Assembly: GCA_018710945.1 (NCBI GenBank)
Contig: DVIW01000007.1
Location: 1-64,000, forward strand
DNA from: Candidatus Aphodovivens avistercoris
Lineage (GTDB): Bacteria > Actinomycetota > Coriobacteriia > Coriobacteriales > Eggerthellaceae
Direction: 5' to 3'
Length of the DNA stretch: 64,000 nt
Part shown: one piece after another, positions 34,990-38,851 of the stretch
Position numbering within the stretch: the stretch's first letter is position 1
Layout of the letters: every line of letters starts with the position of its first letter
Notes under the pieces: generated by a model
The model's database searches: none
What the model was told of the DNA's origin: nothing
Seen by the model: only the letters and a program-made list of their open reading frames with translations
Made by a program: the position numbers and the translations under genes

Positions 34990-36717
34990 CTACATCTTCT
35001 CGGGCGCGCTCACGCCCAGAAGCCCCAAGGTCAGCGCCAGAAGCGTGCGCGCGGCGTCCGCCAAGGCCAGGCGCGCGGCCTGCACCTCGCGCTCGACGCC
35101 GATCACGCGGCATTCGGTGTAGAACTGGTGGAACAGCGCCGCCAGGTCCTGCGCGTAGTGCGTCAGGCGGAACGGGGCGCGGTCGCGCGCGGCCAGCTGG
35201 ACCAGCTCTTCAAAGTCGGCCATCTTGCGCATGAGAGCCAGCTCCGCCTCGCCGGAAAGCGGCGAGAGGTCGGCGTCGGCCGGCGCCAGCTTCGCCGCCA
35301 GCTCGTCAAGCGGCAGCGTCCCTGCCTCGGCCGCGGCGGCGTCCTCGGGCGAGGCGGCCTTGCGCAGAAGCGAGCAGATGCGCGCGTGGGCGTACTGCAC
35401 GTAGTAGACCGGGTTGCTGGCATCCTTCTTCTTCGCCACCTCGATGTCGAAGTCGATGGGTTGGTCGGAGGAGCGGCTCAGCATGAGGAAGCGCGTGGCG
35501 TCGGTGCCCACCTCGTCGATGAGCTCGGAGAACGTGACCATCTCGCCCGTGCGCTTCGACATGCGCACGGCCTCGCCGTCGCGGAACAGGTTCACCAGCT
35601 GGCCCAGCACCACCTCCAGCGCGCCGGGATTGCCCCAGGCAGCCAACATGGCCTCGCAGCGCTTCACGTAGCCGTGGTGGTCGGCGCCCCAGATGTCGAT
35701 GAGGTGCGAGAAGCCGCGCTCCAGCTTGCTGTGGTGGTAGGCCATGTCGCTCATGAAGTAGGTCATCTCGCCGTTTTCCTTGATGAGCACGCGATCCTTG
35801 TCGTCGCCGAAGGCCGTAGAGCGGAACCACGTGGCGCCGTCCTGCTGGAAGATGTAGCCCTTGGCGTCCATCGCCTCGAAGGCGCGCTGCACGGCCGTCT
35901 TGCCCTCGGCGTCGGGCACGTACAGGTCGCGCTCGCTGAACCACGTGTCGAAGTGCACGCCGAACCCGGAAAGCGTGTCCTTCATGAGCTGGAGCATCTG
36001 GGCGTAGCCCTCCTCGCGGAAGGCGTGCTCGCGCTCCTCGTCGGAGACGGAGAGCCACTTGTCGCCGTCGGCGTCGATGATGCGCTGGGCGATGTCGGCC
36101 ACGTAGCCGCCACCGTAGCACTTCTCGGGCAGCTCCACGTCGCGGCCGAGCAGCTGCTGGTAGCGCACCGAGATGGAGCGGCCGAACACGTCCATCTGCA
36201 CGCCGTGGTCGTTGATGTAGAACTCCTCGGCCACGTCGTAGCCCGCATGGCGCATCACGCGCGCCATCGCGTCGCCGAGCGCCGCCCAGCGGCCGTGGCC
36301 CACGTGCATGGGGCCCGTCGGGTTGGCCGAGACGTACTCCAGGTTCACGCGGCCCGCCTCGGTCTTCGGAGCGCCCTTGCCGAAGTCGGCTTTCTGCGCG
36401 CGCACCTGGCGGACGATATCCTGGAACGCGGCGGGGTTCAGGCGCAGGTTGATGAAGCCGGGGCCGGCGATCTCGGCGCTTTGCACCATGCCGTCCTCGG
36501 GCAGATGCGCCACGATGGCCGCCGCGATGTCGCGCGGGCTGCGTTTCGCCTGCTTGGCGCAGCGCAGGGCGACGGTGGACGCCCAGTCGCCGTTCGCCTC
36601 GTCGCGGGGGCGCTCCAGCGCGGCAGCGGGCGGCTGTTCAAGCGGCAGCGAGCCGTCGGCGCAGGCGGCGGCGATGGCCGAGTCGATGATCTGCTCCAGT
36701 TGTTCGCGAATCTGCAT
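34990..36717 (-). CDS. argS: Arginyl-tRNA synthetase
   Basis: This 575-residue class I synthetase charges tRNA-Arg. The N-terminal Add-1 domain (1-110) precedes the HIGH-type motif MHVGHGR (about residue 138). The KMSK-like motif is MSKRTG, and the C-terminal DALR anticodon-binding domain ends the protein. Length is typical. The ATG at 36717 follows a GGGAAAG-type site. It sits next to a 1.1-kb non-coding block, beyond which lie argF and tRNA-Arg(UCU), so three arginine-related genes flank that block. Confidence 0.97.
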   Translation of the reverse strand: MQIREQLEQIIDSAIAAACADGSLPLEQPPAAALERPRDEANGDWASTVALRCAKQAKRSPRDIAAAIVAHLPEDGMVQSAEIAGPGFINLRLNPAAFQDIVRQVRAQKADFGKGAPKTEAGRVNLEYVSANPTGPMHVGHGRWAALGDAMARVMRHAGYDVAEEFYINDHGVQMDVFGRSISVRYQQLLGRDVELPEKCYGGGYVADIAQRIIDADGDKWLSVSDEEREHAFREEGYAQMLQLMKDTLSGFGVHFDTWFSERDLYVPDAEGKTAVQRAFEAMDAKGYIFQQDGATWFRSTAFGDDKDRVLIKENGEMTYFMSDMAYHHSKLERGFSHLIDIWGADHHGYVKRCEAMLAAWGNPGALEVVLGQLVNLFRDGEAVRMSKRTGEMVTFSELIDEVGTDATRFLMLSRSSDQPIDFDIEVAKKKDASNPVYYVQYAHARICSLLRKAASPEDAAAAEAGTLPLDELAAKLAPADADLSPLSGEAELALMRKMADFEELVQLAARDRAPFRLTHYAQDLAALFHQFYTECRVIGVEREVQAARLALADAARTLLALTLGLLGVSAPEKM

Positions 36718-37118
36718 GGTGGATGTCTTTCCCTCTTCTGCGGAAGGGGCCGCGCCGCGCGCGACCCCTGTTCAATGCCGGTGAGATTCTACCATCAACG
36801 CCCCCGCCTGCCGCCACGCTTCGGGAAAAACGCTCAAAGCCCCGAAGCACGGCAACGGAGCGCGGCGCGGGGGCACTGGGGCGGCTGGGCGAAACGGGTG
36901 CGGGAACAACGGGCGCGGGCAGGTACGGGGCAGATGCGGCAGCAAGCAAGGCCGCTGCCGTCGTCTCCGACGACGCACGGGCATCCGGGTGCGCCGTGGC
37001 GAAGCCAGTGCCGTGCTGCCGATAGGTGAGAGATCGCTGCTTCCATAGCCGGATCTTAGCATCGCGACCTTGCACGTCGATTGCGCAACCACCGCCCCGA
37101 TGATGCGCGCATTCCCTT

Positions 37119-37140
37119 CGCTTGATGTACGAATCAAGCG
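37119..37140. repeat. 8-bp inverted repeat CGCTTGAT/ATCAAGCG
   Basis: Perfect arms 37119-37126 and 37133-37140 with a 6-bp spacer. Candidate protein-binding dyad immediately before the 11-bp repeat array. Confidence 0.6.
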
Positions 37141-37145
37141 CCGCC

Positions 37146-37244
37146 GTCCGCAAAACCCTGCGCCTGCGTCCGCAAATGCTTGCGCGAACCTTGCGCAAAC
37201 GCCTGCAAAACCTTGCACGGATCTTGTGCGGACCTTGCGTGCGA
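37146..37244 (+). repeat. Nine 11-bp iteron-like tandem units
   Basis: Units begin at 37146, 37157, 37168, 37179, 37190, 37201, 37212, 37223 and 37234, with approximate consensus CTTGCGCAAAC. Five of them begin CTTG, and most share the GC-GC/GCAAA pattern. The 11-bp period equals about one helical turn and is not a multiple of three, which argues for protein binding rather than coding. Confidence 0.75.
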
Positions 37245-37311: not shown

Positions 37312-37386
37312 TGTGGAAAACCTCGCGCAGCCCCGAGTTAGCATTGTTGAAAACTCGCATGACCGGGCGCCGCACAATGTGGATAA
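37312..37386 (+). repeat. Three phased DnaA-box-like 9-mers
   Basis: TGTGGAAAA (37312-37320), TGTTGAAAA (37345-37353) and TGTGGATAA (37378-37386) lie in the same orientation with exactly 33-bp spacing. The third is the complement of the canonical DnaA box TTATCCACA, the first fits TTWTNCACA and the middle one has one mismatch. Confidence 0.7.
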
Positions 37387-37623: not shown

Positions 37624-37651
37624 AAAACGAGCCGGCTCGAAAGCCGGCTCG
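37624..37651 (-). terminator. Terminator downstream of argF
   Basis: A perfect 10-bp stem (37628-37637 with 37642-37651) with a TTCG loop on the minus strand is followed by TTTT. It is about 205 bp after the argF stop. Confidence 0.8.
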
Positions 37652-37855
37652 CAGAGCAGCGCAAAGGCAATGGAGCATCGCACCGGCCCGGAGCGCAGCG
37701 GGCACGGCGTACCGCTCGAAACGCAGCGGGCACGCGCAAGCGGAAAGCAGCTTTGTAAAGTGTAGCCGGTTATGCTTCGCCGAACAGGCGCGACGACCGC
37801 ACGCAGCGGCCGCGCGTCAGCAGACGCAGCAGCCGCACGCCACCAGACGCTACCC

Positions 37856-38851
37856 CTACTTCAGCGTGGCGTACATGACGGCTTTGATGGAGTGCATGCG
37901 GTTCTCGGCCTCGTCGAACACGACGCTGCGCGGACCCTCGAACACCTCGTCGGTCACCTCCAGCTCGGTGACGCCGAACTTCTCGGCCACGCGCGCGCCC
38001 ACCTCGGTCTTCGCGTCGTGGTAGGCGGGCAGGCAGTGCATGAAGATGGCGTCGTCGGCCGCCAGGTCCATCAGCTCGCACGTCACGCGGTAGGGCGACA
38101 GCAGCTCGATGCGCTCGGCCCACAGCTCGTCGGGCTCGCCCATCGACACCCACACGTCGGTGTAGACGACATGCGCCCCCGTGCAGGCCGCGCGCGGATC
38201 CTCTTCCAGCTCCACTGAGCCGCCCGTCTCCGCGGCGATGGCGCGGCAGCGCTCCACCAGGTCGGCGGCGGGCATCTGCTTGGCCGGCCCACATGCCACG
38301 AAGTGCAGGCCCAGCTTCGCGCACACCACCATCAGCGAGTTCGCCACGTTGTTCTGCGCGTCGCCCATAAACACGAGCTTCAGCCCGCGCGTGCCCTGGG
38401 GGAAGCACTCCTCGATGGTCATCATGTCGGCGATCATCTGCGTGGGGTGGAACTCGGTGGTCAGGCCGTTCCACACGGGCACGCCCGCGTAGGCGGCCAG
38501 CTCTTCCACGATCTCCTGCCCGAAGCCGCGGTACTCGATGCCGTCGAACATGCGCCCGAGCACCCGCGCAGTGTCGGCGACGGATTCCTTCTTGCCCATC
38601 TGCGAGCCCTTCGGGTCAAGGTAGATCACGCCCATGCCCAGGTCGTGCCCGGCCACCTCGAACGAGCAGCGCGTGCGCGTGGAGGTCTTCTCGAACAGAA
38701 GCACGATGTTCTTGCCCTCCAAATAGCGATGCGGCACGCCAGCCATCTTCAGGCGCTTGAACTCGTGCCCCAGCTTGATGAGGTAGCGGATCTCGTCGGG
38801 GGTGAAATCGAGCAGCTTCAGGAAGCTGCGGCCGCTGAGGCTGACGGGCAT
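37856..38851 (-). CDS. argF: Ornithine carbamoyltransferase
   Basis: This 331-residue enzyme transfers the carbamoyl group between carbamoyl phosphate and ornithine/citrulline. It shows the carbamoyl-phosphate site STRTRCSFE (about residue 53), the HPTQ motif and the ornithine-binding HCLPA motif near the C-terminus. Length and the HSIKAVMYATL end fit both anabolic ArgF and catabolic ArcB. No arcA, arcC or other arg genes are adjacent, so the direction is undecided. The ATG at 38851 was chosen for its AAAGGA site; upstream in-frame codons lack one. Confidence 0.93.
   Translation of the reverse strand: MPVSLSGRSFLKLLDFTPDEIRYLIKLGHEFKRLKMAGVPHRYLEGKNIVLLFEKTSTRTRCSFEVAGHDLGMGVIYLDPKGSQMGKKESVADTARVLGRMFDGIEYRGFGQEIVEELAAYAGVPVWNGLTTEFHPTQMIADMMTIEECFPQGTRGLKLVFMGDAQNNVANSLMVVCAKLGLHFVACGPAKQMPAADLVERCRAIAAETGGSVELEEDPRAACTGAHVVYTDVWVSMGEPDELWAERIELLSPYRVTCELMDLAADDAIFMHCLPAYHDAKTEVGARVAEKFGVTELEVTDEVFEGPRSVVFDEAENRMHSIKAVMYATLK

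Follow-up and report, generated by a model that had tools for sequence, protein, structure and literature searches.

An 11-bp repeat array upstream of argS in Candidatus Aphodovivens avistercoris and a predicted class of competence-regulon promoters in Eggerthellaceae

The 11-bp repeat array lying upstream of argS in the window (the whole stretch of DNA analyzed, 64,000 nucleotides from Candidatus Aphodovivens avistercoris) is one of nine promoters sharing a single design in this genome, and to judge from the genes standing behind these promoters, the class very probably serves a competence regulon. The whole explanation favored here, which is a likely one, is that the arrays would be competence-regulon operators at which activation of the SARP type takes place cooperatively and head-to-tail, a BTAD protein being the likely activator. 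The fact that the window copy precedes argS, which is not a transformation gene, counts against it. The features of the window on which the analysis is based are as follows.

37069..37244, minus strand: operator array of 16 units, defined by its period, by shuffles and by a leave-one-out phase test
37064..37074, minus strand: promoter-proximal repeat TGCAAGGTCGC, placed by the leave-one-out PWM, its geometry being compared with that in PMC10936776
37053..37058, minus strand: -10 element TAAGAT, its spacing to the last repeat being that of the eight other promoters
34990..36717, minus strand: argS, the first gene downstream of the array and its presumed target
37856..38851, minus strand: argF, upstream of the array on the same strand, terminating before the array
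37627..37652, minus strand: probable argF terminator (11-bp stem followed by TTTTGCG), which divides argF from the array promoter
37312..37386, plus strand: three DnaA-box-like words (37312, 37345 and 37378), 33 bp apart and in the array's 11-bp register

An earlier note based on the letters of the window described nine 11-bp units at 37146-37244; these are present as read, and form part of a longer run of 16 in-register units at 37069-37244. On the motif strand (+), the consensus is SYTGCRCGRMY (for example CTTGCGCAAAC), which becomes GCGCAAGGTYC along the direction of transcription (-). The period-11 score amounts to 8.9 with nine units and 11.9 with sixteen, and neither value was matched in any of 5000 dinucleotide shuffles, the largest shuffled value being 6.1, so that chance periodicity, the possibility raised in the note, does not account for the array. 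Among the other periods from 6 to 20, none exceeded 2.7, or 0.6 over the sixteen-unit stretch, which is the top-ranking 11-periodic stretch in the 64-kb window. The tandem-repeat tool under-reports the array because its units are only about 70% alike. When a PWM built from the eight other arrays of the genome was scored on the window array, phase 0 gave +19 for units 1-8 and +41 for units 9-16, all ten other phases giving -36 or lower; past unit 16 the score is negative. The non-coding character claimed for this block was borne out: the frames between the array and argS have codon log-odds of -0.45 to -0.81, as compared with about +0.45 to +0.79 in real genes, and a hidden gene was rejected since the scores are negative in every frame. 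An Rfam search for a leader or sRNA yielded only a sub-threshold chance match.

When the array DNA was used as the query against its own genome, a second location came up, and searching for words revealed further sites elsewhere in steps of 11 or 33 bp. With the pattern GACCTTGCACGGCGGTTGCG and up to three mismatches, nine places were found, dispersed over several contigs and each linked to a promoter, the reversed control pattern giving none. All nine follow a common plan, consisting of a -10-like TANNNT (GACAAT at tad), a constant gap, GCAAGG, and in-register 11-bp units leading away from the gene. In eight of the nine, GCAAGGT (GCAAGCT at rpsF) is followed after 8 nt by TANNNT, the tad promoter having GACAAT; the -10 hexamers at the eight promoters other than that of the window are TATCAT, TACCAT, TACCCT, TATGCT, TAGCAT and GACAAT. 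No -35 hexamer belongs to this design, nor is there one at the window promoter. The nine sites align without gaps, as do the promoter ends of all 32 sites of a larger set, and when each array was scored with a PWM built from the other eight, phase 0 alone was positive for every array. The length varies from about 5 units (rpsF) to 16 (window). The targets of the nine promoters are the following.

comEA-comEC-holA (Pfam HHH_3/SLBB for ComEA)
yraN-comM (Pfam UPF0102 for YraN, Mg_chelatase for ComM); the contig ends here, with dprA beyond view
comFC (Pfam phosphoribosyltransferase and zinc ribbon)
recA-recX (Pfam RecA)
rpsF-ssb-rpsR
topA (Pfam Topoisom_bac)
Tad/Flp pilus operon with CpaF (Pfam T2SSE for CpaF)
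secreted SpaA-fold (SpaA/T-Q-ester) protein (Pfam SpaA)
argS (the window copy, the ninth)

Since the same block stands before DNA-uptake, recombination and pilus operons, it was taken to be the promoter/operator of a competence regulon. In having one cis-element common to comEA/EC, comF, dprA-type, ssb and recA genes, the class is like the ComK boxes, the ComX cin-box and CRP-S/Sxy, whereas it shows no sequence resemblance to them and its architecture is that of an 11-bp array. Micrococcus luteus, another high-GC Gram-positive organism, has a comEA-comEC operon and requires its Flp/Tad pilus for transformation (PMC4322843, PMC8467076), and the passages of these two papers that were read describe neither a master regulator nor an operator.

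It was suggested in the earlier note that the array, together with the DnaA-box-like words just downstream, might be an iteron, an origin-like, DnaA-titrating or partition element. In favor of this are the 11-bp direct repeats and the two strict words nearby, which are otherwise rare in the sampled sequence. No GC-skew switch occurs at the site, however, and nine dispersed copies on several contigs, all linked to promoters at a fixed -10 spacing and eight of them standing before transformation, recombination, pilus or surface genes, make a replication or partition element scarcely credible. Of the array of DnaA-box-like words itself, two strict copies of TTWTNCACA (37312 and 37378) held up, and the third (37345) is degenerate. 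The 201 kb of the genome sampled contain the strict word twice, both within the window; a further copy lies next to the tad array (L116). Each of these words is about 245-315 bp away from an array promoter, shares its strand and keeps its 11-bp register, the degenerate copy at 37345 included. The possibility that the array itself extends to them was rejected since their PWM scores are negative, although the register is the same.

At the window copy, the question is whether the competence-type promoter really serves argS. It might be an orphan or decayed promoter left behind by the loss of its target gene, argS being no true target, an idea compatible with the competence-promoter class which we regard as possible and rather doubtful. 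A leader of about 330 nt without any coding gene runs from the array promoter to argS, which has a proximal -10 of its own (TAGAAT, 36786-36791), and relatives have no array at argS; these points fit an orphan. On the other hand, the rpsF, topA and recA array promoters likewise stand off from their genes, before a leader, and model R1, which was built on the nine promoters of this genome, gives the window array a score within the range of the others (60.2 bits versus 59-73). Since it scores like the other arrays, the window array is probably used, either for argS or else for a non-coding transcript. In the former case, argS would gain an additional transcript at the time of competence.

The nearest relatives of the ArgS protein are in Candidatus Aphodovivens (82%), followed by other Eggerthellaceae. 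Scanning 819 kb of argS loci with model R2, built on 32 promoters, gave a single match, that of the window, and nothing at the 80 argS loci of relatives. When the argS-argF gap was compared with the same locus in relatives, the gene order differed and no array was found there. The note had regarded absence from close relatives as speaking against its reading, and at the argS locus the array is indeed absent from them. The array therefore belongs to a promoter class present at many loci rather than to argS, and its absence here does not mean that it is random.

The geometry of these promoters can be compared with that of known operators. SARP activators recognize direct repeats with a spacing of 11 or 22 bp, the last one 8 bp from the -10 (PMC10936776). 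AfsR places one protomer on each 11-bp repeat, at -40 to -30 and at -29 to -19, and engages sigma region 4 at a poor -35 (PMC10936776); the sites bound by PimR are CGGCAAG heptamers separated by 4 bp (PMC5930380). The arrays have this spacing, with 11-bp direct repeats and the 3' repeat 8 nt from the -10, and resemble the afs box and the PimR operator in these repeats, in the position of the last repeat near the -10, in the weak or absent -35 and, as regards PimR, in the GCAAG core. With the -10 rather than a start site used as a ruler, the promoter-proximal repeat of the window falls at about -29 to -19, which is where the downstream repeat lies in the AfsR box. Known SARP operators differ in that they carry two or three repeats and serve antibiotic genes, whereas up to 16 repeats are present here, before DNA-uptake genes.

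PhoB-type regulators bind 11-bp direct repeats beside a -10 without any -35. A competence promoter of the present class might thus be bound by a response regulator of the OmpR/PhoB type, the direct-repeat geometry of which fits equally well, and direct-repeat binding by response regulators has been noted (PMC5859096). PhoB/PhoP-type promoters have shorter runs and different targets, however, the GCAAG core and the distance to the -10 match SARP operators, and the BTAD protein described below is single-copy across the family whereas no specific response regulator has been implicated, so that we consider a response regulator improbable. Coating of the repeats by a small MerR-type protein like BldC is much less probable still: BldC binds cooperatively and head-to-tail to variable numbers of direct repeats, as would be expected of the protein bound here, but its protomers cover 9 bp and need the AT-rich AATTXXXX(C) (PMC5859096), and the present units are GC-rich and 11 bp long.

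Since the promoter geometry fits SARP operators, proteins with BTAD, the SARP effector domain, were searched for. They are present in 57 of 60 genomes of the Eggerthellaceae-like family (one copy in 56, two in one); across the order, 92 of 100 genomes have such a protein. The copy in the genome of the window (G000:C48:30329-32938) has 869 amino acids, comprising a P-loop region, a middle part without any Pfam match, a winged-helix-like stretch and BTAD, in that order. BTAD matches PF03704 with 54.9 bits (cut-off 22.1), and the winged-helix-like stretch scores 18.1 bits with Trans_reg_C, below the cut-off of 26.2. The C-terminal 253 residues match the PDB entries of EmbR (E 9e-8) and AfsR (E 5e-6), and as we read the printed alignment, S and R stand here at the AfsR positions T88 and R92, which contact DNA. 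The protein has the BTAD of SARP regulators and a putative OmpR-type winged helix; the SARP module is N-terminal in AfsR, whereas it is C-terminal here, behind the P-loop region.

Based on the operator grammar and the single-copy occurrence, this protein is probably the activator of the arrays. Both members of one genus (g3; G004 and G050) have no match for BTAD, ComEA or YraN, and the whole competence system may possibly have been lost there. Several points count against the assignment: this co-loss is seen in one genus with two genomes, the BTAD protein occurs outside the family together with weak or short arrays, and the winged-helix part falls short of the Pfam cut-off. In two further genomes (G014 and G038) BTAD is present and ComEA has no match, and the reverse is true of G054, which is 84% complete. 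No array was seen upstream of the regulator gene, so that autoregulation was rejected, and the residue aligned with R92 of AfsR varies (R, M, L, Q, Y) with no clean rule linking it, by eye, to the sequence of the unit. In the mechanism proposed, monomers of one activator, probably this single-copy large SARP of about 870 amino acids with its P-loop, putative OmpR-type winged helix and BTAD, would bind head-to-tail, one per turn, on one face of the DNA, and the protomers adjoining the -10 would take over the role of a -35 in recruiting RNA polymerase. The length of the array would lend the response cooperativity and sharpness. The reading in the earlier note, that the one-turn period points to cooperative binding on one DNA face, is supported.

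The period was tested on 330 bp upstream of comEA in 30 genomes of the family, using periods from 7 to 15. It was 11 that came top in 24 of the 30, with a mean best score of 7.4 versus 1.8-3.3 for the other periods; in the control upstream of argS, this was the case in 1 of 30 genomes (mean 2.4), and a first-order Markov null gives 2.5 (sd 0.18). Upstream of yraN, 11 came top in 21 of 30 genomes (mean 6.3), and no other period reached 6. The units themselves vary, from GCGCAAGGTCC in the genome of the window to GCGTTGGATCC in Gordonibacter and GCGCTGGATTC in G005. Two genomes of the window's own genus (G001 and G002) have 11 as the top period upstream of comEA, with scores of 5.3 and 6.2, and neither gives any R1 or R2 match. 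Conservation of the period with drifting of the sequence makes this an unusual case of operator evolution. Outside the family, in 40 other genomes of the order, little of the signal is left: 11 is the top period in 8 and is clear in 3, and runs of two to four units are seen by eye, which are perhaps the ancestral form. Short 11-bp runs of this kind occur upstream of comEA in G186 (L302), G180 (L291), G194 (L292), G191 (L310) and G153 (L286), with different units (GTTAGATGCTT, CTGTCAGAAA and TTCTGTTCGGA).

According to the literature read, little is known about competence control in Actinomycetota, and we found no competence regulon described for gut Coriobacteriia. In the literature searched, no paper dealt with competence in Eggerthellaceae, with SARP proteins as competence regulators or with arrays of this kind, an absence which is no proof. 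The parts, SARP-like operator grammar and com genes, are ordinary ones; what is new is that they are combined in a competence regulon whose arrays are long and in helical phase and which has a single candidate activator, of a class known from antibiotic clusters. If this is true, a single SARP-type activator would answer the question as to what controls DNA uptake in this lineage. The array provides a readable regulon signature, names one candidate regulator gene per genome and predicts DNA uptake through the Tad pilus in common gut commensals such as Gordonibacter, and knowing the inducer would help the genetics of organisms that are hard to transform. We lean, by a little, toward a broader proposal that a SARP-family activator might be the master regulator of natural competence in Eggerthellaceae, acting via long cooperative 11-bp arrays with a conserved period and drifting units, and that in Gordonibacter toxin-antitoxin and small toxin-like genes might have come to be controlled in the same way.

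In five genomes of genus g41, taken to be Gordonibacter, model R2 finds 8-15 sites per genome. They stand on the orthologous operons comEA-comEC, recA, yraN, comFC, topA and rpsF-ssb and on that of the secreted protein, and the Gordonibacter Tad operon (CpaB, TadZ-like) also lies behind an array promoter. In Gordonibacter and G005, toxin-antitoxin pairs of the Gp49/HigB type are found directly behind array promoters, before topA and a RarA-type gene, and a gene that we read as BrnT-like, with no Pfam match, occupies the same position; the loci with such pairs or with the BrnT-like gene are L153, L154, L162, L168, L128 and L159. A toxin-antitoxin system under competence control is already known from Haemophilus influenzae (PMC6957337). 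Multi-copy hydrophobic peptides of 39-54 amino acids (MTDLVL..., MDDTLLALTG...), with no Pfam match, likewise occur behind array promoters (L160, L161, L165, L166, L232, L234, L235, L237, L240, L242, L245 and L247), and from their sequences they look like type I toxins.
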